From: Flavobacteriaceae bacterium
Lineage (GTDB): Bacteria; Bacteroidota; Bacteroidia; Flavobacteriales; Flavobacteriaceae
NCBI GenBank assembly: GCA_018669795.1
Contig: JABHSQ010000005.1
Coordinates: 310,001-374,000 of the forward strand
Direction of reading: 5' to 3'
Length of the DNA: 64,000 bases
Every line of letters starts with the position of its first letter. Within the stretch, counting starts at the first letter, position 1. This document shows positions 2,471 through 29,812 of this stretch, one piece after another. Both the position numbers and the translations under genes were made by a program. A model generated the notes under the pieces. That model ran no database searches. It had not been told where the DNA came from and worked only from the letters and a program-made list of their open reading frames with translations.

Positions 2471-3709
2471 TTATTGTGATTTTTCTAAGTTAATAAGGTA
2501 AGCTAAATTTCGAACAATTTTGTTGTGTTTTTTTACAAATGGATTGGATTCATCCCAAACATATCCGGCGAGCACAGCACATATTTGCTTTTTAATTTCC
2601 GTGTTCTGTGGTCTGTGAAAAAATAAGGTTTGTAAATTCCCTGTATACCATTCTTTAACGTAAGTAGAAAAAACATTAACCCCTTTTTTGATATAATTAG
2701 AGTAGTCTTCTTCCCAGTTTACAGTTTCATTATTTAGTTCTTTGGTTATTAGTTTTGCTGCTAATATTCCTGATTCTGTGGCAAAAGTTACACCAGAAGA
2801 AAAGACTGGATCCAAAAACTCTGCACTATTTCCTGTTAAAGCATAGCCTTTACCATAGAGCTGTTTTACCGACTTTGAGAAATTTTTTATACTTACTGGT
2901 TCAAATGTATAATCTAAGTCTTTAAAACGTTCATAATAATAAGTTGAAAGCTTCATCATCTCAGTTAATCTTTTTGTGGAATTTCCTTTAAAAGATTCCA
3001 TGTAATCTGTCGCACCAACATAACCAATACTTGTTATTCCGTTAGAGAAAGGAATTACCCATAACCAAGTATCTTTATCTATCACATCAAAAGTAATAAG
3101 TGTGCCTTCTTTTCCTTTCGGTCGTTTAATATCTTTTACATGGGTAAAAATTGAAGAATGCTCAGGTATAGCTGATGGAGCATCCAGATCTAATAATCTT
3201 GGTAAAACACGACCAAAACCACTAGAATCAATAATGAATTTAGCTTCAATAGTCTTAGTTTTTTGTTCTTTATTCTTTATTGTTGTTACTGAAGTTCCAT
3301 CTTCACTAAAAACCACATCAACTACTTCTTCTTCAAAAGTAATATCTACACCGTTTTTTATGAGTTCGTCGGTAAGTGTTTTATCAAAATCGGCCCTAGG
3401 AACTTGCCAAGTCCAATCCCATCCTTTCGTGTGTTTTTCACTGAAATCGAAATTACAAACTACATCTTCTTTTAAAAAACGAGCTCCATTTTTAATCTCA
3501 AATTCTTGTTTTTTTAAACACTCTAAAAGTCCTACTTCATCAAAATGATCCATGCACCTTGGAAGTAAGCTTTCTCCTATAGCAAATCGCGGGAATTTGT
3601 TTTTTTCAACAACCTTAATTTTTAATCCATTCTTATGCAAATAAGAAGCAGCAACACAACCTGATGGTCCTGCACCAATAATTAAAACATCAACATTTGT
3701 ATTACTCAT
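2471..3709 (-). CDS. FAD-dependent oxidoreductase, flavin-dependent halogenase-like
   Basis: GAGPSG Rossmann motif, GESLLPR, WxWxIP motif (TWLWVIPF); divergent from aryl-polyene locus. Confidence 0.75.
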   Translation of the reverse strand: MSNTNVDVLIIGAGPSGCVAASYLHKNGLKIKVVEKNKFPRFAIGESLLPRCMDHFDEVGLLECLKKQEFEIKNGARFLKEDVVCNFDFSEKHTKGWDWTWQVPRADFDKTLTDELIKNGVDITFEEEVVDVVFSEDGTSVTTIKNKEQKTKTIEAKFIIDSSGFGRVLPRLLDLDAPSAIPEHSSIFTHVKDIKRPKGKEGTLITFDVIDKDTWLWVIPFSNGITSIGYVGATDYMESFKGNSTKRLTEMMKLSTYYYERFKDLDYTFEPVSIKNFSKSVKQLYGKGYALTGNSAEFLDPVFSSGVTFATESGILAAKLITKELNNETVNWEEDYSNYIKKGVNVFSTYVKEWYTGNLQTLFFHRPQNTEIKKQICAVLAGYVWDESNPFVKKHNKIVRNLAYLINLEKSQ

Positions 3710-3811: not shown

Positions 3812-5353
3812 ATGGTAAAACTTTTAGGCGAATTAAGGATCGAAGAATTTTATAAAATAATATTCGAATCTCACTCTATTGAAATGGATAGCACTGTTTT
3901 AGAGATAGTTGAGAGGAGTTTTGTTTTTTTAAAAGAATTTTCGAAAAATAAAGTTATTTATGGTGTCAACACCGGTTTTGGTCCGATGGCTCAGTATAAA
4001 ATTAAAAACTCTGAAAGAATACAATTACAATATAATTTAATAAGAAGCCATGCTTCAGGTACAGGGAATATAATTCCTGATATGTATGTTAAAGCAGCTA
4101 TGTTAGCTAGACTTAATACATTGTCTTTAGGAAATTCTGGTGTTCACAAATATGTCATTGAACTAATGACAATGCTAATTAATAAAAATATAATTCCTTT
4201 AATTCACGAGCATGGAGGTGTTGGTGCTAGTGGAGATTTAGTTCAATTGGCACATTTAGCTTTGGTGTTAATTGGTGAAGGTGAAGTGTTTTACAAAGGA
4301 GAGCGTAAAGCCACAAAGGATGTTTTTAAAGATGAAGGTTTAGAGCCAATTCCTATTGAATTACGAGAAGGACTAGCTTTATTAAATGGTACTTCAGTAA
4401 TGACAGGTATAGGCATTGTAAATACAATCTATACAAGAAGATTATTAGATTGGATGATTTCTTGTTCTGCCGTAATTAATGAAATTGTAAAAGCTTATGA
4501 CGATCATTTATCTTATGAGTTAAATCAGTCGAAAAAGCATAAAGGACAACGCAAAATTGCAGAAGCGATGCGTGAGCATTTAAAAGATAGTTCTTTAACA
4601 AGAAAAAGAGAGGATCATTTGTACGAGAATAATAATAATAATAATAGCGATAATGTTTTGGTATTTAAAGATAAAGTACAAGAGTACTATTCATTGCGTT
4701 GTGTACCACAGATTTTAGGACCTGTTTTAGATACATTAAATGGTGTTGAAAGTGTTTTAATTAAAGAAGTAAATTCTGCAAATGACAACCCAATTGTAAA
4801 TATAGAGAAGCAGCACGTATACCATGGTGGTAATTTCCATGGAGATTATGTTTCATTGGAAATGGATAAGCTAAAGATCGTAGTCACAAAAATGAGTATG
4901 TTAGCTGAAAGACAATTAAATTATCTTCTAAACCCAAGTCTTAATAATATATTACCTGCCTTTGTGAATCTTGGCAAAATAGGATTAAATTTTGGTATGC
5001 AAGGTGTGCAATTTACTGCAACGTCTACAACAGCTGAAAATCAAATGCTTTCAAACCCAATGTATGTTCATAGCATCCCTAATAATAATGATAATCAGGA
5101 TGTAGTAAGTATGGGTACTAATGCTGCTTTGATTACCAAAAGGGTAATTGAAAATGCATTTGAAGTTGTAGCGATAGAAATGATAACAATTATTCAAGCA
5201 ATCGAATATCTTAAAGTTCAAAATAAAGTATCTTCTAAAACAAAAAAGATGTACAATGAAATAAGGCAAATAATTCCTATATTTACAGAAGACGTTGTTA
5301 TGTATCCATATGTAAACAAGGTAAAAGATTTTATTATAAACAATAAAAACTAG
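3812..5353 (+). CDS. Aromatic amino acid ammonia-lyase, probable tyrosine ammonia-lyase
   Basis: MIO motif GGVGASGDLVQLAHLAL; strong similarity by eye to Flavobacterium johnsoniae TAL (YGVNTGFGPMAQY, NLIRSHASGTG, SNPMYVHSIPNNNDNQDVVSMG). Confidence 0.9.
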   Translation: MVKLLGELRIEEFYKIIFESHSIEMDSTVLEIVERSFVFLKEFSKNKVIYGVNTGFGPMAQYKIKNSERIQLQYNLIRSHASGTGNIIPDMYVKAAMLARLNTLSLGNSGVHKYVIELMTMLINKNIIPLIHEHGGVGASGDLVQLAHLALVLIGEGEVFYKGERKATKDVFKDEGLEPIPIELREGLALLNGTSVMTGIGIVNTIYTRRLLDWMISCSAVINEIVKAYDDHLSYELNQSKKHKGQRKIAEAMREHLKDSSLTRKREDHLYENNNNNNSDNVLVFKDKVQEYYSLRCVPQILGPVLDTLNGVESVLIKEVNSANDNPIVNIEKQHVYHGGNFHGDYVSLEMDKLKIVVTKMSMLAERQLNYLLNPSLNNILPAFVNLGKIGLNFGMQGVQFTATSTTAENQMLSNPMYVHSIPNNNDNQDVVSMGTNAALITKRVIENAFEVVAIEMITIIQAIEYLKVQNKVSSKTKKMYNEIRQIIPIFTEDVVMYPYVNKVKDFIINNKN

Positions 5354-5361
5354 TAATATAA

Positions 5362-5610
5362 TGTTCACTAAATATTTTTTCAACTCTTACCCAAGAACTG
5401 GCTTTAGTGAGGGAAAACGACATGTTTGGTTATATAAATACTGTTGGTGAATATGTTATCGAACCACAATTTAAATTAGCAAAGAATTTTTCTGGAAGCT
5501 TCACAGCAGTGCTTCAAGGAGATAAATGGGGATTTATAAATACCAAAGGAGAAGTGTTAGGTGGTAAATGGTTTCAAAATACAGAACTATTTGTAAACAC
5601 AAAACTGTAG
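5362..5610 (+). pseudogene. WG-repeat protein remnant
   Basis: Open frame 5362-5610 (..ALVRENDMFGYINTVGEYVIEPQFKLAKNFSGSFTAVLQGDKWGFINTKGEV) holds about 1.5 WG repeats with no ATG/signal peptide; only GTG at 5407. Confidence 0.55.
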
Positions 5611-5628: not shown

Positions 5629-6384
5629 ATGAAGGGAAGTATAGAAAATAAAACTAAACATGCTTTAGTTACAGGTGGTTCAAGAGGAATAGGTAAAGCT
5701 GTCTGTATTCAATTAGCCAAAGATACAGAATATCACATTTTAATAAATTACAACAGCAATAAATTAGAGGCTTTAAATACCTTAAAAGAAGTAAATAGAG
5801 TTGGAGGTATTGGAGAAATACTACAATTTAATGTTGTAAATGTAGACGAAGTAAAGAAGGTATTAGATGCTTGGAACGAAAGAAATAAAGATGCTATTAT
5901 AGAAGTACTCGTAAATAATGCAGGTATTACAAAAGATGGCTTGTTTATGTGGATGCCTCAAAATGATTGGCAAGATGTTATTAACACATCTCTTAATGGA
6001 TTTTTTAATGTGACCAATCATTTAATTCAAAAATTACTAGTAAATCGATATGGAAGAATTATTAATATGGTATCGGTTTCTGGATTAAAAGGTACGCCAG
6101 GTCAAACTAATTATTCAGCAGCAAAAGGTGCTGTTATAGCTGCTACTAAAGCATTAGCTCAAGAAGTAGCAAAAAGGAATATTACTGTAAACGCTGTAGC
6201 TCCTGGTTTTATAAAAACAGACATGACAAGTGAACTTGATGAAAAAGAACTAAAGAAAATGATTCCTGTAAATCGATTCGGTACGGCCGAAGAAGTTGCA
6301 CATGTTGTTTCTTTTCTAGCTTCAAATAAAGCATCTTATATCACTGGCGAGATTATAAATATTAATGGAGGAATTTATTCATAA
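5629..6384 (+). CDS. fabG: 3-oxoacyl-ACP reductase (FabG-type SDR)
   Basis: TGGSRGIGKAV, NNAG, YSAAKGAVIAATKALAQE motifs. Confidence 0.93.
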   Translation: MKGSIENKTKHALVTGGSRGIGKAVCIQLAKDTEYHILINYNSNKLEALNTLKEVNRVGGIGEILQFNVVNVDEVKKVLDAWNERNKDAIIEVLVNNAGITKDGLFMWMPQNDWQDVINTSLNGFFNVTNHLIQKLLVNRYGRIINMVSVSGLKGTPGQTNYSAAKGAVIAATKALAQEVAKRNITVNAVAPGFIKTDMTSELDEKELKKMIPVNRFGTAEEVAHVVSFLASNKASYITGEIININGGIYS

Positions 6385-6398
6385 TTTAAATTTGAAGA

Positions 6399-7619
6399 AT
6401 GGGAAGAGTAGTGATTACCGGAATGGGAATTTATTCTTGTATTGGTAAAAATTTAGATGAAGTTAAGGAATCTTTATACGAAGGTAAGTCTGGGATTGTG
6501 ATTGATAAAGACAGAGTTCCTTTCGGATATAGTTCTCCATTAACAGGTATGGTTGATGAACCAAATTTAAAAAAACAACTTTCTAGAAGACAACGTTTAA
6601 GTTTGAGTGAAGAAGGTTGCTATGCATATGTTGCTACTATTGAAGCTTTAGAAAATGCTGGAATTACACAAGATTATCTTGATATAAATGAAGTAGGAAT
6701 ACTTTATGGCAATGATAGTACTGCAAAAGCAGTTATAAATTCTATAGATAAAATTAGAGTAAAAAAAGATACTTCTTTGGTTGGTTCAGGTGCTATATTT
6801 CAGGCCATGAATTCTACTGTAACCATGAATCTTTCTACAATATTTAAGCTTAAAGGTGTTAACTTCACAATAAGTGCAGCTTGTGCTAGTGGTTCACATT
6901 CTATTGGCATGGCTTATCAACTTATAAAAAGCGGATTACAAGAATGTGTTATTTGTGGTGGAGCTCAAGAAATAAATAAGTTTGCAATGGGTAGTTTTGA
7001 TGGTTTAGGTGTATTTGCTATGAATACTGATGATCCAGCAAAAGCCTCACGACCATTTGATAAAAACAGAGATGGTTTAGTGCCTAGTGGTGGTGCAGCA
7101 ACTTTAGTTGTTGAGAGTTATGAGTCTGCAGTAAAAAGAGGAGCTCCTATCTTAGCAGAAATAATAGGCTATGGTTTTTCTTCTAATGGAGATCATATAT
7201 CTACTCCAAATGTTGATGGTCCTTCAAGAGCTATGTTAAAGGCAATTAAACAAGCAAATATAGATAGTAGTGCAATTGATTACGTAAATGCTCATGCAAC
7301 TTCAACTCCTATAGGTGACACAAATGAAGCTAAAGCTATTTTTAATGTGTTTGGTAAAAATGGACCTTATGTGAGTTCTACAAAATCAATGACAGGTCAT
7401 GAATGTTGGATGGCAGGAGCAAGTGAAGTTGTATATTCTGTACTAATGATGCAAAACAATTTTATTGCTCCAAATATAAATTTAGAGGAACCTGATGAAG
7501 ATGCTTCTAAATTAAATTTAGTAAGTAAAACGTTAGATAAAAAAATTGATGTATTTTTATCTAATTCTTTTGGATTTGGTGGTACAAATTCAGCATTAAT
7601 AATAAAAAAAATACAATAG
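6399..7619 (+). CDS. Beta-ketoacyl-ACP synthase (FabF-type)
   Basis: ISAACASGSHSIG nucleophile, NAHATSTPIGD, KSMTGHECWMAGASE. Confidence 0.93.
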   Translation: MGRVVITGMGIYSCIGKNLDEVKESLYEGKSGIVIDKDRVPFGYSSPLTGMVDEPNLKKQLSRRQRLSLSEEGCYAYVATIEALENAGITQDYLDINEVGILYGNDSTAKAVINSIDKIRVKKDTSLVGSGAIFQAMNSTVTMNLSTIFKLKGVNFTISAACASGSHSIGMAYQLIKSGLQECVICGGAQEINKFAMGSFDGLGVFAMNTDDPAKASRPFDKNRDGLVPSGGAATLVVESYESAVKRGAPILAEIIGYGFSSNGDHISTPNVDGPSRAMLKAIKQANIDSSAIDYVNAHATSTPIGDTNEAKAIFNVFGKNGPYVSSTKSMTGHECWMAGASEVVYSVLMMQNNFIAPNINLEEPDEDASKLNLVSKTLDKKIDVFLSNSFGFGGTNSALIIKKIQ

Positions 7620-7623
7620 AAAG

Positions 7624-7866
7624 ATGAATAAAGAAGTTATTATTGAAAAAATAAACAACTTTCTTATAGATGAATTTGAAGTTGAATCTGAAGATATTTC
7701 TCCAGAAGCAAACTTGAAAGAAACTTTAGATCTTGATAGTTTAGATTTTGTAGACCTTGTAGTCTCTGTTGAATCAAATTTTGGTGTTAAATTAGAGGGT
7801 GAAGATTTTTTAAATGTCGTATTGCTTGAAGACTTCTATAATCTTATTGAAAATAAACTTCTATAA
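7624..7866 (+). CDS. Acyl carrier protein
   Basis: 80 aa with DLDSLDFVDLVVSVE phosphopantetheine site. Confidence 0.93.
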   Translation: MNKEVIIEKINNFLIDEFEVESEDISPEANLKETLDLDSLDFVDLVVSVESNFGVKLEGEDFLNVVLLEDFYNLIENKLL

Positions 7867-7882
7867 TCTTACTTAAATATTT

Positions 7883-8767
7883 ATGGATGTTGATTGGAAA
7901 GGGAAGTCAAGAGGTAATGTTCTAGGATATAAAATATTCATATTTTGTATTAAAAAACTAGGATTAACTTCAGCATATTTTGTTCTATATTTTGTTGCTG
8001 CTTATTTTTGTTTTTTTGCTAAAGACAGCACAGAATCATCTTACTATTACTTTCGAAAACGACTCGGCTATTCAAGATTTAAAAGCATAACAAGCGTTTA
8101 TCTAAGTTATTTTGTTTTTGGACAAACAATTATAGATAAAATTGCAATTTCTTCCGGTCTTAAATCTAAATTCACATATGATTTTGACGGTATTCATCGT
8201 ATTAAAGAAGTATTGAAGGAAAAAAAAGGTGGTATTCTTATTAGTGGTCATTTAGGTAATTTTGAAATTGCCCAACATTTTTTTGGAGAATTAGAAGAGA
8301 AAGATTGTATTAGTTTATTAAGGTACAACGTTGAACACACTGCTATTAAGAATTATCTCGATACAGTAATGAAAAAATCTAACATAAAAATTATTTTCAT
8401 TAAAGATGATTTTTCTCATATATTTGAAATCAATGCAGCATTGGCTAGAAACGAAATTGTTTGTATAACAGGAGATAGATATATTAAAGATTCAAAATAT
8501 TTAACTCAAGAATTATTAGGCAAAGAAGCTAAGTTTCCTGCTGGACCATTTCTTCTCGCTTCTAGATTAAAAGTCCCTGTATTATTCGTTTATGTAATGA
8601 AAGAATCCAGAAAACACTACCATTTATATGCAAGAAGCTCAAAAGTAAAATATAGAGATGCAAATGCATTACTAAATAATTATACAAAAAGTTTAGAATG
8701 GATACTTAAAAAGCACCCATTACAATGGTTTAATTATTTTGATTTTTGGAACGTAAATAAAGAGTAA
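7883..8767 (+). CDS. HtrB/LpxL-like acyltransferase
   Basis: GGILISGHLGNFEIAQ, TGDRYI, FPAGPFLLASRLKVPVLFVYV motifs. Confidence 0.88.
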   Translation: MDVDWKGKSRGNVLGYKIFIFCIKKLGLTSAYFVLYFVAAYFCFFAKDSTESSYYYFRKRLGYSRFKSITSVYLSYFVFGQTIIDKIAISSGLKSKFTYDFDGIHRIKEVLKEKKGGILISGHLGNFEIAQHFFGELEEKDCISLLRYNVEHTAIKNYLDTVMKKSNIKIIFIKDDFSHIFEINAALARNEIVCITGDRYIKDSKYLTQELLGKEAKFPAGPFLLASRLKVPVLFVYVMKESRKHYHLYARSSKVKYRDANALLNNYTKSLEWILKKHPLQWFNYFDFWNVNKE

Positions 8768-8768
8768 A

Positions 8769-8951
8769 ATGAAGAACATTCTAGAAATACAATATTCCCA
8801 GTCTGACCAGTTAACTGAACTCACGAAAAATATAGCCAAACCCCTTACTAATTACAAAGACTTAAATGTTGTTTATCATCAAATCAAAATGGAAACAGGC
8901 CATGCCTATCCATGGTTTTTTTTCATATTCATATACCCACTTAACCGTTAG
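8769..8951 (+). pseudogene. darA: Truncated DarA-like dialkylresorcinol condensing enzyme (N-terminus only)
   Basis: MKNILEIQYSQSDQLTELTKNIAKPL...NVVYHQIKMETGHAYPW resembles DarA N-termini (YSQSGQL...PFPW); the frame then degenerates at a T8 run (8916-8923) and stops. Confidence 0.6.
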
Positions 8952-8959
8952 TTAATAAA

Positions 8960-9388
8960 ATGTTATTAGATAAACCTATTTCGAATATTGAAAATTTAAT
9001 ACCACAAAAGGCACCTTTTGTAATGGTAGATACATTACTAGGTTTTTCATGTGAAAATATTATTTCCTCTTTTAAAATTATAGAAACCAATATTTTCTAT
9101 AAAAATCAGACACTATCTGAAGTAGGATTAATAGAAAATATGGCTCAAACGGTGGCACTCCATACTGGATATGATTATTTTTTAAAAGGAGAACCAACTC
9201 CAATGGGATATATAGGCTCAATTAAAGAAATCCAGATTTTAATGCTTCCTCAATTAGATGAGGTCATAATTACAGAAGTACGTATTTTACAAGAATTTAT
9301 GGGAGTAACTTTAGTAGAAATAACTATCTCTAATACTAAAAAAAAGAAAATTGCCTCATGTACAATGAAAACTGTTATGGCTACTTAA
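8960..9388 (+). CDS. Hotdog-fold 3-hydroxyacyl-ACP dehydratase-like protein
   Basis: IPQKAPFVMVDTLLGF, GLIENMAQTVALHTGY typical of FabZ-like proteins of aryl-polyene clusters. Confidence 0.85.
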   Translation: MLLDKPISNIENLIPQKAPFVMVDTLLGFSCENIISSFKIIETNIFYKNQTLSEVGLIENMAQTVALHTGYDYFLKGEPTPMGYIGSIKEIQILMLPQLDEVIITEVRILQEFMGVTLVEITISNTKKKKIASCTMKTVMAT

Positions 9389-9832
9389 TGATTGATTTAG
9401 ATAAAATAGATATATATGATTTTTTAACACATCGTCTGTCGTTTTTATTTTTAGATAAAATTATAACTCTAAATAATAAAGAGGTATTAGCTTCAATTTT
9501 ATTTAAAGAAGATAAACTCTTTGTTGATAACAATTGTTTTAATAAAATAGGCTTATTTGAAAATACAACACAAACATGTTCGTTAATTGTAAGTAAAAGT
9601 TATTTTGACAATAATAATATAAAAAGAGAAGGTGCTAAATTAATAGGTTTTATAAGTGCTATTAAAAAAAAATAACATTTTATGTCCTAAGGTTGGAAGT
9701 TCCATAATATCAAATGCTAAATTAATATCAAAATTTGATACTGAGAGTGACGTCTTCGGACGCTATAGTATTTGCTTATTTCCTGCTATAGGTTTATCAA
9801 CCTTAAATATTTCTGAAAAATCATCACATTAA
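9388..9832 (+). pseudogene. Second hotdog dehydratase-like gene, frameshifted at an A9 run (9664-9672)
   Basis: ATG 9388 overlaps the previous stop; frame stops after GFISAIKKK*, but removing one A continues as GFISAIKKNNILCPKVGSSIISNAKLISKFDTESDVFGRYSICLF... to TAA 9830-9832, alignable to the upstream paralog. Confidence 0.7.
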
Positions 9833-9847
9833 TTACCATTGTTTATT

Positions 9848-10303
9848 ATGAAAAGGAAAATACAGTCTAAAATAAAAAAAGAGATTAGTTTCATTAGTAA
9901 AGTAAGAGTTCGGTTTGTGGAAACAGATCCTTTAGGTATAGTTTGGCACGGAATTTATATTCAATACTTCGAAGATGGAAGAGAAGCTTTTGGGAGACAT
10001 CATTCCATTTCATATTTACATCAAAAAGAATTTGGTTATGCAACTCCAATCATAAAATCAATGAGTGAGCATAAACTCCCTTTACGTTATGGAGATGTCG
10101 CAACTATAAAGACAACATATTTTGACACTCGTGCTGCAAAAATGATCTTTAGATATGAAATTTTCAATCAAGACGAATTACTTGTTTGTACTGGTGAAAC
10201 CGTTCAGGTTTTTATAGATCAAATAGGTCAAGGAAATTTATCTTTAGTAATTCCAGAGTTTTTTGAAAAATGGAAACAAAAAGTTGGACTCTCGGATGAC
10301 TGA
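9848..10303 (+). CDS. Acyl-CoA/ACP thioesterase, 4-hydroxybenzoyl-CoA thioesterase-like hotdog
   Basis: VRFVETDPLGIVWHGIYIQYFEDGREAFGR motif; ATG at 9848 preferred over TTG 9839. Confidence 0.88.
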   Translation: MKRKIQSKIKKEISFISKVRVRFVETDPLGIVWHGIYIQYFEDGREAFGRHHSISYLHQKEFGYATPIIKSMSEHKLPLRYGDVATIKTTYFDTRAAKMIFRYEIFNQDELLVCTGETVQVFIDQIGQGNLSLVIPEFFEKWKQKVGLSDD

Positions 10304-11453
10304 AGTTTACCTGTCATATAATAATATAGTTTCCTCACTAGGTTTTGATAGTGAAACTGTTGTGAGTAATATTCACAACGAAATTTCTGGTTTACAATTA
10401 ATTGATGATAAAGAGATGTTCTTTAAGTCCTTTTGTTCATCAATTATAAACCAAAAGGAATTAAATAATAGTTTTACTTCTATAGCAGTTGAAGGCAATT
10501 TTACGAGATTAGAGATGATGATGATAACCTCTTTAAATAGAGTTATTCAAGACACTAAAATTCCTTTAACAAAAAATGTTGGTTTAATTATTTCAACTAC
10601 AAAAGGGAATATTGATATTTTGGATAAAAATAGTAAATTTTTGGAAGAAAGAGCCTATTTAGGTTCTTTAGGAAAAGTTATAAAAGATTTTTTTAAATTT
10701 AAAAATGATGCTATTGTAGTTTCTAATGCTTGTGTTTCAGGAGTATTGGCTGTAACTATTGCTAAACGATATATCACGCAAGGCATTTATGATAATGTGT
10801 TTGTTGTTAGTGGAGATATAGTGACTGAATTTATTTTATCTGGATTCAATTCTTTTCAAGCATTAAGTAGTGAGCCTTGCAAACCTTACTCTAAGAATCG
10901 TACTGGAATTAATATTGGAGAAGTAGCTGCAAGTGTTTTGGTTACTAAAAATGACACAAATTTAGCAAAAGAGGCCGTCGCTATTTTAGGAGATGGATCT
11001 TGTAATGATGCAAACCATATTTCTGGACCTTCACGAACTGGAGAAGGCTTAGTTAGAAGTGTGAAATTAGCACAAAAAGAAGCCAATATTTCTTTTGATA
11101 ATATTGATTATATTTCAGCTCATGGAACTGGAACACCGTTTAATGATGAAATGGAAGCTATTGCAATTAATAGATTGGGCTTACAAAATGTTCCTATAAA
11201 TAGCTTGAAAGGTTATTTCGGTCATACCCTAGGGGCTTCTGGTCTTTTAGAAACCATTGTTGGAATGCATTCGCTTTATAACAACACTTTATATTCTTCT
11301 CTCGGTTTTGAAGAAATAGGAGTTTCACAACCAATAAATGTAATTACAAAAACAATTACAAAAAAATTGAATATTTTTCTTAAAACAGCCTCTGGTTTTG
11401 GAGGTAGTAATATGGCCGTAATATTTAAAAAAATAAACATGACATCAAAATAA
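10296..11453 (+). CDS. Beta-ketoacyl-ACP synthase
   Basis: VVSNACVSGVLAV nucleophile, SAHGTGTPFNDEMEA, YFGHTLGASGLLE; ATG 10296 overlaps the previous stop. Confidence 0.9.
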   Translation: MTEVYLSYNNIVSSLGFDSETVVSNIHNEISGLQLIDDKEMFFKSFCSSIINQKELNNSFTSIAVEGNFTRLEMMMITSLNRVIQDTKIPLTKNVGLIISTTKGNIDILDKNSKFLEERAYLGSLGKVIKDFFKFKNDAIVVSNACVSGVLAVTIAKRYITQGIYDNVFVVSGDIVTEFILSGFNSFQALSSEPCKPYSKNRTGINIGEVAASVLVTKNDTNLAKEAVAILGDGSCNDANHISGPSRTGEGLVRSVKLAQKEANISFDNIDYISAHGTGTPFNDEMEAIAINRLGLQNVPINSLKGYFGHTLGASGLLETIVGMHSLYNNTLYSSLGFEEIGVSQPINVITKTITKKLNIFLKTASGFGGSNMAVIFKKINMTSK

Positions 11454-11456
11454 ATT

Positions 11457-12074
11457 ATGAATTCTAATTACTATATAAGCTCCTTTTGTTCTATTAAAAA
11501 CAATACGATTTCCTTAAATGGATCTATGGTTTATAGTAATGAAAACATGGAGTTTTTAGAATTTATAAAAGCTGCATATAAATCTTTAGATACAAATTAT
11601 CCTAAGTTTTTTAAAATGGATGGCTTAAGTAAATTAGCTATCTTAGCAGCCCATGTTTTATTTAAAAATGAGAATATAAATCAAGATAAAGATAATGATA
11701 TTGCTGTTGTATTTTCAAACAAATCATCAAGTATAGATACAGATAGAAAGCATCAAAAGTCAATTGAAAACAAAGATGACTATTATCCTAGTCCAGCTAT
11801 TTTTGTCTATACATTACCAAATATTTGTATTGGAGAAATTAGTATAAAGTATAAACTGTTTTCTGAAAATAGTTTTTTTATCTTTGAAAACTTTAGTGCG
11901 CAACACTTGCTGGATTATGCAAATAGTTTGTTGTCAGCAGGTAAAACTGAAAAAGTGCTTTGTGGTTGGGTTGAATTAGACGGGAACCAATATGAAGCTT
12001 ATTTGTATTTGGTAACAAAAATTGGAACAATATTACATAGTAAAGAAAATATAATAAAATTTTATAATACTTAA
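11457..12074 (+). CDS. Half-length ketosynthase-like protein (PF13723-type, no catalytic Cys)
   Basis: 205 aa; MDGLSKLAILAAHVLF, PSPAIFVYTLPNICIGEISIKYKL, CGWVELD; position in APE locus. Confidence 0.7.
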   Translation: MNSNYYISSFCSIKNNTISLNGSMVYSNENMEFLEFIKAAYKSLDTNYPKFFKMDGLSKLAILAAHVLFKNENINQDKDNDIAVVFSNKSSSIDTDRKHQKSIENKDDYYPSPAIFVYTLPNICIGEISIKYKLFSENSFFIFENFSAQHLLDYANSLLSAGKTEKVLCGWVELDGNQYEAYLYLVTKIGTILHSKENIIKFYNT

Positions 12075-12075
12075 C

Positions 12076-12333
12076 ATGGAGACTTTAAAACAAGAGCTAA
12101 AAGAAAATATTATAGAGCAACTAAACCTTGAAGATATAGCAATAGAAGATATTAATGACGATGATATATTATTTGGAGATGGCTTAGGTTTAGACTCAAT
12201 TGATGGCTTAGAATTAATTGTAATGCTAGATAAAAATTATGGTATTAAATTAACAGATCCAAAAAAAGGCCGCGCTATTTTTGAGTCAATTAAAGTGATG
12301 GCAAAGTATATTTCTGAGAATAGAACAAAGTAA
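12076..12333 (+). CDS. Acyl carrier protein
   Basis: GLGLDSIDGLELIVML phosphopantetheine site. Confidence 0.92.
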   Translation: METLKQELKENIIEQLNLEDIAIEDINDDDILFGDGLGLDSIDGLELIVMLDKNYGIKLTDPKKGRAIFESIKVMAKYISENRTK

Positions 12334-12369
12334 ACTCTTCTATGCTCAATAGTTTGTAAAAGATAAAAT

Positions 12370-13572
12370 ATGAGTAGAGGCGTTGCTATAACTGGAATGG
12401 GAATTATTTCTGCTATTGGAAACAATGTAGAAGAAAATTATGAATCGCTTTTAGAAGGTAAAACCGGAATCTCAAGAGTTTCAAAAATTAAAACTATCCA
12501 TAGAGATGATATTATGGTTGGTGAAATTTCCTTTACTAATCAAGAATTAGAACATCAACTTGGTCTTAGCTCAGATAATAATTATTCTCGAGCAGCTTTA
12601 TTAGGCTCAATAGCGGCAAAACAAGCAATCGTAAACGCTGGAATTTCAAATATAAATAAATATAAGACTGGATTAATTTCTTCAAATAGTGTTGGTGGAA
12701 TGGATATGACTGAAGCACATTTTTATGATTATTTTAAAAATGAGGCCATCCAAAAATATATAAATGGTCATCATTCTGGAGATTCTTCTCAGAAGATCGC
12801 TGAGCAACTGGGATTAGAAAAAAGTTTTGTAACCACAATCAGTACAGCCTGTTCTTCTTCAGCAAATGCCATAATGCTTGGCGCAAGATTAATTAAATCA
12901 GGACAACTAGATAGAGTTATTGTAGGAGGAGTAGACTGCTTAACAAAATTTACAATCAATGGATTTAAATCCTTAATGATTTTATCAGATACTTTTAATT
13001 CTCCATTTGATGAGGATAGAAAGGGTTTGAATCTGGGAGAAGCCGCGGCTTTTTTAGTATTAGAGTCAGACAAAGTTTTGCAAGCTAAAAACAAACCTGT
13101 TTTGGGATATGTAAAAGGTTATGCCAATACCAACGATGCCTACCACCAAACAGCTTCTTCCGACAATGGAGATGGAGCGACTTTAGCGATGGAAAAGGCA
13201 TTAAAAGTAGCACAATTATCGTCAAAAGATATTACCTATATAAATGCACATGGTACAGCAACTATTAATAATGATTTATCTGAAGGACGAGCTATTTTAA
13301 GAGTCTTTGGTAATGACGTACCACTATTTAGTTCAACAAAAACATATACTGGGCATACCCTCGCTGCTGCTGGAGCTATTGAAGCTGTGTATTCAATTTT
13401 AGCACTTCAAAATAATATAGTTTTTCCTAATTTGAATTTCAAAACACAAATGAAGGAATTTAACATAACTCCACAATTAGAACTTAAAGAAAAAGAGTTA
13501 CAAACAGTGATGTCTAATTCTTTTGGTTTTGGTGGAAACTGTTCAACCGTTATTTTTTCAAAAAAACAATGA
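12370..13572 (+). CDS. Beta-ketoacyl-ACP synthase (FabF-type)
   Basis: TISTACSSSANAIMLG, NAHGTATINND, TKTYTGHTLAAAGAIEA. Confidence 0.93.
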   Translation: MSRGVAITGMGIISAIGNNVEENYESLLEGKTGISRVSKIKTIHRDDIMVGEISFTNQELEHQLGLSSDNNYSRAALLGSIAAKQAIVNAGISNINKYKTGLISSNSVGGMDMTEAHFYDYFKNEAIQKYINGHHSGDSSQKIAEQLGLEKSFVTTISTACSSSANAIMLGARLIKSGQLDRVIVGGVDCLTKFTINGFKSLMILSDTFNSPFDEDRKGLNLGEAAAFLVLESDKVLQAKNKPVLGYVKGYANTNDAYHQTASSDNGDGATLAMEKALKVAQLSSKDITYINAHGTATINNDLSEGRAILRVFGNDVPLFSSTKTYTGHTLAAAGAIEAVYSILALQNNIVFPNLNFKTQMKEFNITPQLELKEKELQTVMSNSFGFGGNCSTVIFSKKQ

Positions 13573-14633
13573 AAACTGTCTATATAAATAGTATTGGCTC
13601 CATTTCATCGCAAAAAACATTTGACAATTCAGAGTTTTTAGATGATATTATTTCATATGAAGACAATGTTATTTCCGTTGTAAATCCCTCCTATAGAGAC
13701 TATATATCACCAGGAGATTCTAGACGAATGTCAAAAGGTATTAAAATGGGAATTGTAGCTTCTAAAATAGCTTTGAACGATGCAGGTTTAGAAACTGTAG
13801 ACGCCATAATTATTGGTACTGGGATGGGATTACTTAAGGGTTTTGAAAAGTTTTTAAAAGCTCTATTAGATAATAACGAGCAATTTTTAACTCCAACATC
13901 ATTTATACAATCTACCCATAATACTATTGGTGGGCAAATAGCGCTAGGCTTAAAATGTAAAGGCTACAATTTTACCTATGTACATGATAGTATTTCTTTT
14001 GAGTCTGCTATGTTAGATGCAAAATTAATGTTAGAAAACAATGAAGCCAATGTTGTATTAGTTGGTGGTGTTGATGAAATTGGAGATTATACTGCTGAGT
14101 TGCACAAACTCATCCATCATATAAAGACGGAAAAAGTGCATTCTACAAAGCTGTTAAAATCTCAAACTAAAGGTGTTGTTTATAGTGAAGGTGCAAATTT
14201 CTTCGTATTATCTAATGAAAGACAAAATACCAGTTATGCTTTAATTGAAGCCATTAAGACATACAATACTCTTGGAAATATAAATATAAATAAAGTTGTA
14301 AGTGAATTTTTGAAAGAAAATAATCTAGATATTGAAACGATAGATATTGTTGTTCTCGGAAACAACGGAGATATAACTCACGATTATTTTTATAATGATT
14401 TAAGTGCTGGGATTTTCAATAGTACACAACAAGTATATTACAAACATTTATGTGGTGAATTTAACACCGCATCATCATTTGGTGTTTGGTTAGCATCAAA
14501 TATTTTAAAAACACAAAAACTGCCAGAAGCTATAAAATTGAATACTATTGAAGCTTCAAAGTATAAAACTATTTTACTTTACAATCAATATAGAGGAGAG
14601 AATCATAGCTTAACTTTACTTCATAAATGCTAA
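13569..14633 (+). CDS. Ketosynthase-like chain-length-factor protein
   Basis: KS fold (FIQSTHNTIGGQIAL, VVLVGGVDEIGDY) with YVHDSISFESA in place of the Cys nucleophile; 4-bp overlap with the upstream KS. Confidence 0.82.
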   Translation: MKTVYINSIGSISSQKTFDNSEFLDDIISYEDNVISVVNPSYRDYISPGDSRRMSKGIKMGIVASKIALNDAGLETVDAIIIGTGMGLLKGFEKFLKALLDNNEQFLTPTSFIQSTHNTIGGQIALGLKCKGYNFTYVHDSISFESAMLDAKLMLENNEANVVLVGGVDEIGDYTAELHKLIHHIKTEKVHSTKLLKSQTKGVVYSEGANFFVLSNERQNTSYALIEAIKTYNTLGNININKVVSEFLKENNLDIETIDIVVLGNNGDITHDYFYNDLSAGIFNSTQQVYYKHLCGEFNTASSFGVWLASNILKTQKLPEAIKLNTIEASKYKTILLYNQYRGENHSLTLLHKC

Positions 14634-15403
14634 ATTTTAAATCTGTAAATACAATTATAGTAATCGCTTTATTTGCTTTATTATTATTGAGTTGTGTTTA
14701 CGAATTATCGTTATGCTTTATATTTCTAGTGCTAATTGTTTGGTTTTTAATCACACTTTCAGGTTCTTTTTTGATCAGATGGAATTACTATTTTAAATCG
14801 CTGCATTCTAATAAAACAATTAAAGAAAACCAAATCGCTATTACTTTTGATGATGGTCCACATCCGGAATTTACGCCTAAAGTTTTAGAGCTATTAAAAA
14901 CTTACAATGCCAAAGCTACTTTTTTTTGTATTGGTAAACACATAAAAGCATATCCTAAGGTATTTAGTGATATTATAAAACAAGGTCATACCGTCGGTAA
15001 TCATACGTATTCACATTCTAAAATTTTCGGTTTTTTAAAAACTGAAGATGTTATTGAAGAATTACTAAAAACAAACGACATTGTAAAAAAAACTAGCGGT
15101 TTGATGATGCAATTATACAGACCTGCTTTTGCTGTCACCAATCCAAGAATAAAAAAAGCACTAAAAGTAACCAAATTGCAATCCATAGGCTGGAGTGTTC
15201 GCTCTTTAGATACCACCCCTAGAACCTCTGAAATGATATTTAAGCGCACAATTAAAAACCTATCTAAAGGTGATGTTATTTTACTTCACGATACAAGTCT
15301 AAAATCAATTGTGGTATTTGAACAGTTATTGCTATTTTTACAAGAACAAAATATCGAGTCTGTTACCATAGATTCTTTATTTAACATAAAAGCGTATGCC
15401 TAA
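14627..15403 (+). CDS. Polysaccharide deacetylase (NodB-like) family protein
   Basis: ITFDDGPHPEFTPKVLELL...ATFFCIGKH, GHTVGNHTYSH, LLHDT. Confidence 0.9.
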   Translation: MLNFKSVNTIIVIALFALLLLSCVYELSLCFIFLVLIVWFLITLSGSFLIRWNYYFKSLHSNKTIKENQIAITFDDGPHPEFTPKVLELLKTYNAKATFFCIGKHIKAYPKVFSDIIKQGHTVGNHTYSHSKIFGFLKTEDVIEELLKTNDIVKKTSGLMMQLYRPAFAVTNPRIKKALKVTKLQSIGWSVRSLDTTPRTSEMIFKRTIKNLSKGDVILLHDTSLKSIVVFEQLLLFLQEQNIESVTIDSLFNIKAYA

Positions 15404-16013
15404 GTTATTTTATATACTATTTTTTATAGCTACTGCTGTAAATGCACAAACCAAAATGGGTAGTACAGAAGCTGCCAAATTAAAAGCTAAAGTAAAAGCG
15501 CACGCAGCCAGTGTAAAGACATTGTTAAGTGACTTTGCACAATATAAACACTTAGATTTTTTATCTAATGATATTGTGACCACTGGTAAATTGGCATTTA
15601 AATCTCCAAATACTGTGAAATGGGAATATACAACCCCCTTTAAATATGCAGTATTATTTAAAAATGAAACACTTTTTATTAATGACGAAGGAAAGAAAAG
15701 CAATGTAGATATTGGTTCTAACGAAATGTTTAAGCAATTGAACACGCTTATAATAAATAGTATAAAAGGCGATATGTTTAACGAAAATGAATTTGACATT
15801 TCTTATTTTAAAAAAGAAACAAACAGTGAAGTTTATTTTAGCGTAAAACACGAAAAAATTTCGAAATATATAAAGGTATTTCATATTATATTTAATAAAG
15901 AAGGTCATGTCGTAGAATTAAAAATGATAGAACCCTCTGAAGATTATACAAGAATTATATTTAGCAACCGAAGTATAAATATACCATTGTCAGATGCGAT
16001 ATTTACTCAGTAG
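15396..16013 (+). CDS. LolA-like outer membrane lipoprotein carrier protein
   Basis: Signal peptide; TGKLAFKSPNTVKWEYTTPFKYAVLFKNETLFINDEGKKS typical of LolA-like proteins of polyene clusters. Confidence 0.85.
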   Translation: MPKLFYILFFIATAVNAQTKMGSTEAAKLKAKVKAHAASVKTLLSDFAQYKHLDFLSNDIVTTGKLAFKSPNTVKWEYTTPFKYAVLFKNETLFINDEGKKSNVDIGSNEMFKQLNTLIINSIKGDMFNENEFDISYFKKETNSEVYFSVKHEKISKYIKVFHIIFNKEGHVVELKMIEPSEDYTRIIFSNRSINIPLSDAIFTQ

Positions 16014-16599
16014 TTTCTGTTTGCTTTTTATAGCTTGTGGTTCGTATTCTAAAAAGCATGATTTTCAAATTGTGAAATCGTTAAATAGTCGTATTCGTAA
16101 TTCCTATTTTTCAGATGAAAGTAAAGATTATGTATACAAAGCAAATATTACTGTTTACGATAATGATTTTAGTGGTATTTTTATAGTAAAAAAAATAGGT
16201 GAAGCTAATCATCGGATAGTGTTCACAACAGAAATGGGAAATAAAGTTTTCGACTTCTCTTTTATTGATGATACTTTTAAGGTGAATAACATCATAGAGG
16301 ACATGAATAAAGCACTTTTAATAAACATACTAAAGAAAGATTTTACAGTACTTGTTAAAGAAAAAACAACGGTTATTAAATCGTATTCATTACAAGATAC
16401 GTTGGTTTATGAAACGGTAATATTGAACAAAAAATATTTTTATTTTAAAACACAACAACTAAACAAAATACTACGTGTAGCTAGTGGTAAAGAGAAAGTT
16501 ACCTTTTTATTTTCAGAAATTAATGATACTATTGCACACCAAATTAACATTAGACACTCAAATATTAAGCTTAATATTAATTTAAAATTAATTAACTAA
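15994..16599 (+). CDS. Hypothetical lipoprotein
   Basis: MRYLLSSFCLLFIACGSYSKK lipobox-like N-terminus; overlaps LolA. Confidence 0.7.
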   Translation: MRYLLSSFCLLFIACGSYSKKHDFQIVKSLNSRIRNSYFSDESKDYVYKANITVYDNDFSGIFIVKKIGEANHRIVFTTEMGNKVFDFSFIDDTFKVNNIIEDMNKALLINILKKDFTVLVKEKTTVIKSYSLQDTLVYETVILNKKYFYFKTQQLNKILRVASGKEKVTFLFSEINDTIAHQINIRHSNIKLNINLKLIN

Positions 16600-16600
16600 A

Positions 16601-16782
16601 ATGGAAAACTTATTTTTATAATTGGCATTTATTATAATAAGTACAACTGCATACACACAAATAACAATTAGACCTGGTTGATGGCTAGCTTAAATTTTTC
16701 AAATTTAACAAATTCAGGTTTTGATGATATAGTATTAAACCAGTTATTTCAAATAGGAGTAACTTATAAATTCGATTTTTAA
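16601..16782 (+). pseudogene. Internally deleted outer-membrane beta-barrel protein remnant
   Basis: MENLFL*LAFIIISTTAYTQITIRPG (signal peptide) then, in another frame, SNLTNSGFDDIVLNQLFQIGVTYKFDF* (terminal barrel strand ending in Phe). Confidence 0.55.
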
Positions 16783-17153
16783 TGAGTAATTCACTTGAAG
16801 GTTTATACACATTAGATGATTTAGCCGTTGCTGACACTAAAGCAACGGCTAAGATTACTATTAACAAAGACCATATTATTTTTAAAGGTCATTTCCCTGG
16901 TAACCCAGTAATGCCAGGTGTTTGTATGATACAAATTATTAAAGAAATCACGGAAAAAATTGTAAATAAAACCTTGTTTATGCAATCGGCGAGCAATATT
17001 AAATTTATGGCAATAATTAACCCATTTGTGACTCCAGAATTAGAATTACAACTTGAAATTATTGAAACAGAAGGAGTTTTTAAAGTTAAAAACGTTTCTA
17101 AGTTTGAAGAAACTGTGGCTTTAAAATCAACCACTAATTTTATAGAGAAATAA
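16782..17153 (+). CDS. 3-hydroxyacyl-ACP dehydratase (FabZ-like hotdog)
   Basis: IIFKGHFPGNPVMPGVCMIQIIKE active-site motif. Confidence 0.9.
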   Translation: MSNSLEGLYTLDDLAVADTKATAKITINKDHIIFKGHFPGNPVMPGVCMIQIIKEITEKIVNKTLFMQSASNIKFMAIINPFVTPELELQLEIIETEGVFKVKNVSKFEETVALKSTTNFIEK

Positions 17154-17298
17154 TTAAACATCAAACAAATCATTTTAAAAATATTAATTATTCTAACTTA
17201 AGTAATCACATTAAAGACTATATTTTAAAGTCTAAAGCTTTTAGTGATGAAAAAAAAACAGTATTTTCGAAACACTAATATTTTAAGGTTTCTATGTA

Positions 17299-18489
17299 GT
17301 GAATAACCAGTCGATCAATGAAAAAATTTTAGATTTAAGCCTGTGTGTTATTATTCCAACATACAATAACGAGGGTACTTTAAAGCGCGTTATTGACGGT
17401 GTTTTAAAATATACACAACACATTATTTTAGTCAATGATGGCGCTACAGATTCAACTTCAAAAATACTTTCCAACTATTCACAACTTCAACAAATTCATG
17501 TTGAAAAAAATAAAGGAAAAGGCAATAGCTTACGCTTAGCGTTTAAGCATGCGGTAACTTTAAATTATCAGTATGCAATTACCATAGATTCTGATGGTCA
17601 GCATTTCCCAGATGACATTCCAGCTTTTGTTAATGAACTTGAGAAAAGTGAAGATAAAAATCTATTGCTAATTGGTGCAAGAAACATGAGACAAAAAGAT
17701 GTACCTAAGAAAAGTAGTTTTGGTAATACATTTTCAAATTTTTGGTTTTTGGTAGAAACTGGTATTAAACTTCAAGATACACAATCTGGATTTCGATTAT
17801 ATCCTTTAAAAACAATCAAAAAAATTAAGTTTTACACGTCAAAATTCGAATTTGAAATCGAAGTTATTGTAAAATCAGCTTGGGCAGGAGTTACTTTAAA
17901 AAGCATACCTGTTCGCGTATTATACGATGAAACTGAACGCGTTTCTCACTTTAGACCATTTAAGGATTTTACACGCATAAGTATTTTAAATACTTGGTTT
18001 GTTATACTTGCCATTTTATATATTAAGCCAAGAGACTTTCTTAGAGGTTTTAAAAAAAAAGGATTTAAACAATTTATAAAAGAAGATTTACTAGGAACAC
18101 AAAAACCTTCTAAGAAAGCTTTTTCTGTAGCTTTGGGTCTTTTTATTGGGATATCTCCTTTTTTAGGATTTCAAACGGTACTTGTTTTTTTTTTAGCTTA
18201 TATTTTTAAATTAAATAAAGTAATTGCTTTTGTGTTTTCTAACATTAGCTTACCTCCTTTTATCCCTTTTGTTTTGTATGCTAGTGTAAAAATGGGAGAA
18301 TATCTCTTAGGTGTAGAATTAAAATACACTATGGAAGATATGTTAGATAATTTTGAAATATTAATTCATCTCAAAGTTTATATTATTGGTAGTTTTTTAT
18401 TAGCCATTTTAGTATCGGCTAGTTTTGGACTTTTAAGTTATTTTCTTTTTTTATTTTCAAACAAAAAAGTGGCACTCAATAATGGATAG
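17299..18489 (+). CDS. Glycosyltransferase family 2 fused to DUF2062
   Basis: CVIIPTYNNEGTLKRVIDGVL, TIDSDGQHFPDDI; C-terminal ISPFLGFQTVLVFFLAYIFKLNKVIAFVFSNISLPPFIPF (DUF2062); GTG start. Confidence 0.9.
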   Translation: MNNQSINEKILDLSLCVIIPTYNNEGTLKRVIDGVLKYTQHIILVNDGATDSTSKILSNYSQLQQIHVEKNKGKGNSLRLAFKHAVTLNYQYAITIDSDGQHFPDDIPAFVNELEKSEDKNLLLIGARNMRQKDVPKKSSFGNTFSNFWFLVETGIKLQDTQSGFRLYPLKTIKKIKFYTSKFEFEIEVIVKSAWAGVTLKSIPVRVLYDETERVSHFRPFKDFTRISILNTWFVILAILYIKPRDFLRGFKKKGFKQFIKEDLLGTQKPSKKAFSVALGLFIGISPFLGFQTVLVFFLAYIFKLNKVIAFVFSNISLPPFIPFVLYASVKMGEYLLGVELKYTMEDMLDNFEILIHLKVYIIGSFLLAILVSASFGLLSYFLFLFSNKKVALNNG

Positions 18490-21400
18490 ATTTTTTTATA
18501 ATATATATCAAATAATAGTTGCTAAAAAATTATTGGGTTTTGGTATTATGCTTGTCTTTTTTTTAGCCTTGCTGTTTGTAGCTTCAAAAATTGAATTTGA
18601 GGAGGATATTACTAAACTCATCCCATCAAATGATAAAACTTCCGAAATGCAAAAGGTTTTGGAAACTACCAATTTTGCAGATAAGATTATTGTAAATATC
18701 TCTCGTAAATCAGATGGCACAACAGATGATATTTCACAATATGCATCTCAAATTATTGATAGCATAAATAAGTCGTCTAGTGAATATGTTAAACAAATTC
18801 AAGGAAAAATTCAAGATGAGGATTTCCTTGAAACTCTAGATTTTGTTTATCAAAATTTACCACTTTTTTTAGACGATAGTGATTATAAGACTATCGCAAA
18901 TAAAATTCAAAAAGATAGTATTGATATTATAATAAACAGTAATTACAAAACTTTAGTGTCAACTTCTGGATTTATCGCAAAAGAAACCATTTTAAAAGAT
19001 CCATTGGGTTTATCCTTTATTGCTTTAAAAAAAATGCGTCAACTTAGCTTTGGAGATAATTTTATCTTAAATAATGGTTTTTTGATGAGTAAAGATAAAA
19101 ACCATGTCTTATTATTTATAACTCCAAGTTTAGGTTCTAGTGAAACTTCAGATAATGCAAAATTTGTCCAAAATTTATATCACATAAATAATCAACTTAA
19201 TAAAAGTTTTAAAAACAAAGCTCAAGGCGAATATTTTGGAGGTATTTTAATTGCAGTAGCAAATGCTAAGCAAATTAAACAAGACATTCAGCTTACAGTT
19301 GGTATTGCAATGAGTGTTCTACTAATTATTCTTATTGTTTTTTATAAAAAGTTAAGTATCCCTATCGTTTTATTAGTTCCAACAATATTTGGAGGCTTAT
19401 TAGCAGTAGCCTTACTTTATATTATTCGTGTAAATATATCAGCAATTTCTTTAGGTATTGGTTCCGTATTATTAGGCGTTACATTAGATTATTCGCTTCA
19501 TATTTTAACACATATGCGAAGTAATAATAATATTCAAGCGCTATATAAAGAGATTACAAAACCAATATTAATGAGTAGTTTAACCACTGCTTTAGCATTT
19601 TTGTGTTTACTATTTTTAAATTCACAAGCCTTACAGGATTTGGGAATTTTTGCTGCAATAAGTGTATTAGGAACTTCTGCTTTTGCCTTGATTTTTATTC
19701 CTCAAGTATATAAAGGTTCTGTTAATAAATCTAAAAAACAGACATTTATAGATAGGCTTGCTAGTTTTCAGTTTCATAAACAAAAGGGACTTATTATAGT
19801 TCTTGTTATCGCATTTGTTGTGAGTTTGTTCACTTATAATAAGGTTACGTTTAATGAGGATATTTCGAAATTAAATTATGAGCCACAGCATTTAAAAGAT
19901 GCTCAGGTGCATTTAGATGTTTTAACAAATATGGCTTCAAAATCCGTGTACTTGACTGCTTATGGGAATTCTGAAAATGATGCACTTCAAGTAAATGATG
20001 CTATTTATAAAAAACTTGAAGAACTTAAGAATAACAATCAAATTATAGATTTTAGTTCTATTGGCACATTAATTCATTCGGAAATTAACCAAAAACAAAG
20101 TATTGAAAAATGGAATACGTTTTGGAATGATGAAACTATTGCCAACACTAAAAGTAATTTAATTGAAAGTGGTGCGAAATTAGGTTTTATCCCTACAACG
20201 TTTAATGTGTTTTATTCTCTTGTAAATTCCGATTTTGAAACACTTTCTATTGCAGATTATAATGCTTTAAAAACTATTTCAACCGATGATTATATTGCGA
20301 CAAAAGATAATTTTACTACAGTAACTACTTTAGTTAAAGTAAAAGATGAAAACGCAGATGAATTAGTTAATATCTTTAATGATGTCAAACAAATATTAGT
20401 TATTGATAGACAACAAATGAATGAAACGTTTTTAGGTAATTTAAAAACTGATTTTAATCGTTTAGTGCTCTATTCTTTTGTGGTTGTTATATTACTTCTT
20501 TTGGTGTTTTACAGAAGCTTTTCTTTAATGTTAGTAACCAGTATTCCAATAATGTTAACTTGGTTATTAACCATCGGAATTATGGGATTGTTTCATATTG
20601 AATTCAATATTTTCAATATTATTATTTCTACGTTTATTTTTGGTTTGGGTATTGATTACAGTATTTTTATTACCAACGGTTTACTTCATGAATATAAAAC
20701 AGGAGAAAAAGCTTTACAAACTTATAAAACATCCATTATTCTATCTGTTGTCACTACTGTTTTATGCGTTGGAGTTTTAATATTCGCCAAACATCCAGCA
20801 TTATATACCATTTCTTTAGTGTCTCTAATCGGTATTTTATCTGCTGTCATTATTTCATTTACTCTTCAGCCTTTAGTATTTAAATTATTTATTGGTAGCA
20901 AAACTAAACGACCAATAACTTTAGGATTATTAGTATACTCTTTTCTATCATTTAGTTATTTTGGATTTGGAGGTCTTTTTATTTCCTTGATTAGTATAAC
21001 CTTACTAAAGATTATTCCAGTGAGCAAAAAAATAAAAATGAAATGGTTTCATAAAGTCGTCTCATTATTTATGAAATCGGTATTATATACCAACCCTTAT
21101 TTAATAAAGAGAGTTAAGAATGTTGGAAATCAAACTTTTGAAAATCCTGCCATAATAATTGCAAACCATATGTCGTTTTTAGACATTTTGGTAGTTGGTA
21201 TGCTGCATCCAAAAATTGTGTTTTTGGTAAATGATTGGGTTTATAATTCGCCTGTTTTTGGTAAGGCAGTTCAAGTTGCTGGTTTCTATCCTGTTTCTAG
21301 TGGTATTGAAAAAGGTGTTTCTCATTTGGAAGAAAAAGTAAAACAAGGATACTCGTTAATGATTTTTCCTGAAGGGACAAGATCCCCAAACAATAAAATG

Positions 21401-22162: not shown

Positions 22163-22180
22163 AAAATAAAAAACACACAC

Positions 22181-23734: not shown

Positions 23735-23736
23735 AC

Positions 23737-29733: not shown

Positions 29734-29738
29734 CTCAG

Positions 29739-29812
29739 TAGCGAGATCGAGACTTGAACTCGAGACCTCCGGGTTATGAATCCGACGCTCTAACCACCTG
29801 AGCTACCTCGCC
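29739..29812 (-). tRNA. tRNA-Met (CAT anticodon)
   Basis: Reverse complement GGCGAGGTAGCTCAGGTGGTTAGAGCGTCGGATTCATAACCCGGAGGTCTCGAGTTCAAGTCTCGATCTCGCTA; D-arm, TTCATAA loop and T-arm fold. Confidence 0.95.

Follow-up and report, generated by a model that had tools for sequence, protein, structure and literature searches.

A Flavivirga-type flexirubin gene cluster with a decayed dialkylresorcinol module and an apparently maintained aryl-polyene part

We analysed a stretch of 64,000 nucleotides (here called the window) from the genome of a marine member of the Flavobacteriaceae. Very probably it carries a Flavivirga-type flexirubin cluster whose dialkylresorcinol (DAR) module has decayed, selection having continued to act on the aryl-polyene (APE) part. 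The window contains an FlxB-type ketoreductase, an ammonia-lyase, ketosynthases and acyl carrier proteins (ACPs) in the order conserved in flexirubin clusters, but where such clusters have intact darA and darB genes only 49 and 11 codons are left, and of DarH, DarG and the ABC pair the cluster keeps only a permease fragment. It resembles the DAR-less aryl-polyene clusters in having a complete APE core without a functional DAR module, but these show no trace of the module, whereas the window holds remnants of the WG-repeat gene, darA, darB, the second dehydratase gene (DH2) and the ABC permease gene, in order and at the positions expected from the Flavivirga and G181 clusters (Table 1).

An ORF of 60 codons at positions 8769–8951 sits between the genes for the lysophospholipid-type acyltransferase (LPLAT) and the first dehydratase (DH1); it starts one base past the LPLAT stop, its frame is open and it stops eight bases ahead of the DH1 start. 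In a search of 59 relatives, codons 1–49 matched the N-terminus of intact ORFs of 306–316 amino acids (E-values of 2e-9 to 1e-6), and comparison with the DarA of Flavivirga-type clusters gave 63–65% identity, with a score that none of 200 shuffled sequences reached. In those clusters the DarA-type gene lies directly upstream of the DarB gene; the 377-amino-acid protein encoded there was named as DarB, for the G006 copy, by NCBIfam model NF053539 (666 bits, cut-off 550). The 60-amino-acid stub alone had no match in an NCBIfam or Pfam domain search and, because even the intact DarA of G006 matches no model in either, the identity of DarA rests on synteny and homologues. The first-pass annotation had recognized the darA stub between LPLAT and the first dehydratase but had taken the sequence after a T8 run for junk; read out of frame with the darA remnant, this is instead the C-terminus of DarB, FSYSYTHLTVS and a stop codon, where the relatives have FSYAYAHLTVC and a stop codon, and it lies directly ahead of DH1, the same place as in intact clusters. 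Read from its sequence, the 60-codon ORF is a deletion scar: darA codons 1–49 run, with a change of frame, into the end of darB, and a single predicted deletion accounts for the gap between them.

The other scar lies beyond DH1. By comparison with the intact Flavivirga and G181 clusters, darG, darH (of the BtrH type), the ABC ATPase gene and most of the permease gene are deleted between DH2 and the thioesterase gene, and the frameshifted DH2 is fused to the permease fragment. DH1, an aryl-polyene gene, is intact between both scars, and this island suggests selection for polyene synthesis. The FlxJ-type methyltransferase gene, which comes next after KASb in the nearest clusters, is absent from the window without trace; it is present in only about half of the dar-positive clusters described below, of which 96 of 101 have an intact WG-repeat gene. 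Downstream, the remaining genes are KAS-like, ACP2, KASc, KASd, deacetylase, LolA, lipoprotein and DH3, together with those that encode a glycosyltransferase, an MMPL exporter with an acyltransferase, an FAD enzyme, a C45-type protein and an AMP ligase.

Table 1. Genes and gene remnants of the pigment cluster, in positions of the window.
Feature	Position	Strand	Remarks
FAD-dependent oxidoreductase/halogenase-like, intact	2471..3709	-	in great majority of related clusters
Aromatic amino-acid ammonia-lyase (FlxA type), kept	3812..5353	+	pN/pS 0.11–0.17, like intact controls
WG-repeat gene remnant, codons 13–74 of about 379	5368..5553	+	0/200 shuffles
FlxB ketoreductase, kept	5629..6384	+	NF053542, 415 bits (cut-off 340)
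Ketosynthase KASa, kept, full length	6399..7619	+	81–89% to nearest clusters
Acyl carrier protein ACP1, kept	7624..7866	+	85–96% to nearest clusters
Lysophospholipid-type acyltransferase (LPLAT, ApeD-like), kept	7883..8767	+	
darA remnant, codons 1–49 of 307	8769..8915	+	homologues, shuffles, pN/pS
darB remnant, last 11 codons and stop	8920..8955	+	0/200 shuffles, five reference clusters
DH1, hot-dog dehydratase (ApeP position)	8960..9388	+	140–141 aligned codons open
DH2 remnant, first about 94 codons	9388..9675	+	frame lost at A9 run 9664–9672
DH2 remnant continued, other frame (CPKVGSSIISNAKLISKFDTES)	9683..9757	+	0/200 shuffles
ABC-permease remnant, about codons 290–310 of 423	9770..9826	+	0–1/200 shuffles; order as in intact clusters
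Thioesterase (ApeK-like), kept	9848..10303	+	
Ketosynthase KASb, kept	10263..11453	+	
Rest of aryl-polyene cluster, all full length	11457..26741	+	

Because dS was high, rates were compared between genes only. The darA remnant gave pN/pS values of 0.28–0.41, against 0.09–0.16 between intact copies over the same codons, and the DH2 remnant 0.28–0.38 against 0.13–0.15, so that both have evolved about two to four times faster than intact copies by this measure. DH1 is mildly accelerated (0.26–0.36 against 0.18–0.21) and open over its full length, the WG remnant shows no clear acceleration, and most of the kept genes are at the control values of intact clusters. The values for the remnants are well below 1, indicating either that the loss is fairly young on the branch or that some constraint remained.

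In the genome itself (2.25 Mb, 99.1% complete, 28 contigs), the stub is the sole match to DarA, DarB has no match at 1e-10 and no darH was found; the assembly holds no complete DAR pathway. Three KASIII-like genes were considered as DarB and rejected, being FabH-like and scoring at most 53 bits against the 550-bit DarB cut-off. The loss of the dialkylresorcinol arm appears both real and derived, because the nearest relatives have intact syntenic copies, the remnants are in order and they evolve faster. The first-pass annotation had proposed this loss, had seen no KASIII/FabH-like DarB coding sequence in the window, and had named, among its checks, comparison of the stub with DarA, a genome-wide search for darA and darB, and synteny with relatives; these came out in its favour, the nearest clusters having the same gene order. 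What it missed was the extent of the loss, which takes in not only darA and darB but the whole module, including DH2, darG, darH and the ABC pair.

It is extremely unlikely that the DAR genes exist and were collapsed or misjoined during assembly or binning. The assembly is in several contigs and one frame break falls in the A9 run, a typical site of sequencing error, but misjoining cannot give several separate junctions, ordered and diverged remnants, and faster substitution, and the search of the whole assembly found no second copy. Decay of the whole cluster, with no product, would agree with the presence of at least five lesions in one cluster and with the mild acceleration of DH1; we judge it very unlikely, given that the lesions are confined to the DAR module, the WG gene and the methyltransferase, that the other cluster genes are full length, nearly all with pN/pS as between intact clusters, and that compact DAR-less clusters persist in many genera. 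The open frame of the stub and its close spacing to both neighbours would also suit an ORF kept for a purpose, either as a leader coupling the translation of LPLAT and DH1 or as a small protein, but its codons have evolved faster than their counterparts in intact darA, and the other DAR-less clusters have 0–132 bases between LPLAT and DH1 and no stub-like ORF, which makes such a function unlikely.

The position of the window among related clusters was assessed in a family sample of 399 genomes, 116 of which have FlxB over the cut-off; 31 of these, the window included, have no darB orthologue, and in one further FlxB genome darB is cut by a contig end. Mapping of the clusters of the FlxB genomes and of named relatives, partly chosen by similarity, showed darA, darB, DH2, darG, darH and both ABC genes to be present together in all 101 dar-positive clusters and in none of the 32 dar-negative ones. 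The DAR module is thus all-or-none in these 133 other Flavobacteriaceae clusters, which are related and partly similarity-selected, so that the counts are not independent events, and the window is the sole intermediate. Dar-negative clusters retain LPLAT, DH1, KASb and the downstream genes. Two of them (L057 and L142) have a full-length WG-repeat gene, so the link between this gene and the DAR half is not strict. NCBIfam already has names for DarG and for the BtrH-related acyltransferase DarH, and the putative assignment of DH2 to the DAR module follows from co-occurrence in this cluster sample. In work by Fuchs et al. in 2013, DarB chemistry reportedly involves condensation with an alpha,beta-unsaturated acyl partner, and given this chemistry a dedicated dehydratase for DarB would make sense. 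KASa and ACP1 occur in all 101 dar-positive clusters and in 5 of the 32 dar-negative ones; their conservation in the window and in these five suggests that they have a role apart from DAR.

We favour a course of events in which the DAR module was no longer maintained and decayed, while the APE part stayed under selection. One deletion would have brought codon 49 of darA up against the end of darB; a second, running from the middle of DH2 into the ABC permease gene, would have taken out darG, darH and the ABC ATPase gene. The frameshift in DH2, the shortening of the WG gene and the disappearance of the methyltransferase would be further losses. With no DAR, no flexirubin would be made, and the polyene acid, having no resorcinol to esterify, would go to the outer membrane as an APE lipid, carried by the kept acyltransferase, glycosyltransferase, LolA and MMPL proteins as in ape-only cells. 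The organism now probably makes a plain aryl polyene in place of flexirubin, and we infer that the product is lipid-linked. The first-pass annotation, which suggested a shift from flexirubin to APE, had overlooked that DAR-less aryl-polyene clusters are common in the family.

The product may instead be the aryl-polyene acid in free form or esterified to another alcohol, though we favour this less. No acceptor is identified by sequence, and KASa and ACP1, the Azoarcus counterparts of which lie in the dar operon by annotation (PMC3949708), are kept under constraint; however, the kept acyltransferase, glycosyltransferase, LolA and MMPL genes match, again by annotation, the E. coli genes proposed to anchor and export the APE lipid (PMC8253772). 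It is rather doubtful that KASa and ACP1 now supply a different acyl partner or a longer chain, giving an undescribed polyene ester or lipid; if they do, this would apply equally to the five other DAR-less clusters keeping both genes.

The nearest clusters, those of Flavivirga and G181, are intact and form a clade with the window with a support of 1.0, although placement of the window next to G181 rather than Flavivirga has a support of 0.69 only. UvrA is 84–86% identical to that of most congeners and 75% to that of Flavivirga, whereas the closest counterparts of the cluster genes are in Flavivirga and G181. In two sister genomes (G013 and G003), positions 2073–29673 (27.6 kb) are missing beside the same flanks, which have about 90–96% nucleotide identity and are shared up to 1990–2072 and again from 29673; the sister contigs end before the flanks meet, and the empty site was not seen joined. 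A tRNA-Met gene at 29738–29812 lies next to the point where the right flank begins to be shared, and thrC lies at the other side. This region is probably an acquired genomic island holding the pigment cluster. Both sister genomes have repeat-type lipoprotein genes at the island position, and at the island end a CrtI-like FAD enzyme (26856–28544) has only paralogue matches of 24–27% in the Flavivirga-type clusters. The cluster would have come by horizontal transfer before its decay; most simply, it was gained as an island and its DAR half was lost later. Inheritance of the decayed state with the congeners was rejected: the six congeners that have the cluster carry intact darA and darB, and their cluster is not the nearest to that of the window. 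The tree and the remnants rule out the DAR-less clusters as the source. The cluster tree is midpoint-rooted only, so the three other DAR-less groups may be losses or a DAR-free ancestral state.

The flx and dar clusters of Flavobacterium johnsoniae, Chitinophaga pinensis and Flavivirga (PMC3992019) have the same order and families as flank the scars, but the window has only broken copies, or none, of darA, darB, DH2, darG, darH and the ABC pair. The DAR-less Flavobacteriaceae clusters have, like the window, an APE core without DAR, with LPLAT next to DH1 and DH1 next to the thioesterase gene, and in those from Algibacter miyuki, Winogradskyella wichelsiae, Cochleicola gelatinilyticus, Tenacibaculum caenipelagi and G120, KASa and ACP1 are retained as well; the DAR-less clusters are, however, clean, with no module gene or fragment found, whereas the window has remnants and falls inside the dar-positive Flavivirga group. 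By annotation, the ape clusters of E. coli and other Proteobacteria share with the window ketosynthases, ACPs, a reductase, dehydratases and a thioesterase, as well as an acyltransferase, a glycosyltransferase, LolA and an MMPL/RND exporter (PMC8253772), but the window, unlike these, starts from an FlxA-type ammonia-lyase and derives from a flexirubin cluster.

The division between flx and dar is already known (PMC3992019, PMC3949708), and a survey of marine Flavobacteriia scores darA/darB apart from APE genes and tabulates DAR-less APE genes (PMC5932025). The dar operon of Azoarcus sp. BH72 comprises darA, darB, an ACP, a BtrH-like protein, an ABC ATPase, an ABC permease and a ketosynthase (PMC3949708), and because it lists these genes the module itself is not new. 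By annotation only, its genes correspond to the module genes of the intact relatives, but it is a separate locus, whereas the window keeps KASa and ACP1 and loses the rest. We found no description of a half-decayed dar module in searchable open-access papers; what is new is this intermediate and the sharp module boundary across the 133 clusters, DAR-less APE clusters having been known before. Flexirubin-type pigment is a marker in descriptions of Bacteroidota, and a cluster named as flexirubin from its polyene genes may not make flexirubin. The scars at this locus show that the change ran from flexirubin towards a plain aryl polyene. Which genes make up the resorcinol half is marked by the all-or-none pattern, and this suggests roles that can be tested: DH2 would be a dehydratase working for DarB alone, DarH would be the enzyme joining the halves, and the ABC pair would be an ester-specific exporter.

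Elsewhere in the family, genome G065 (locus L101) has a split arrangement, much as in Chitinophaga: its dar genes, a set comprising an ACP, LPLAT, darA, darB, DH1, DH2 and darG, lie more than 500 kb from flxB. Second DarB-like proteins of about 616–631 amino acids, with 41–46% identity over the DarB part, occur outside the flexirubin clusters in G021, G062, G204, G231, G242, G298, G306 and G424, and may be fusion enzymes for the synthesis of other resorcinols or of cyclohexanediones.
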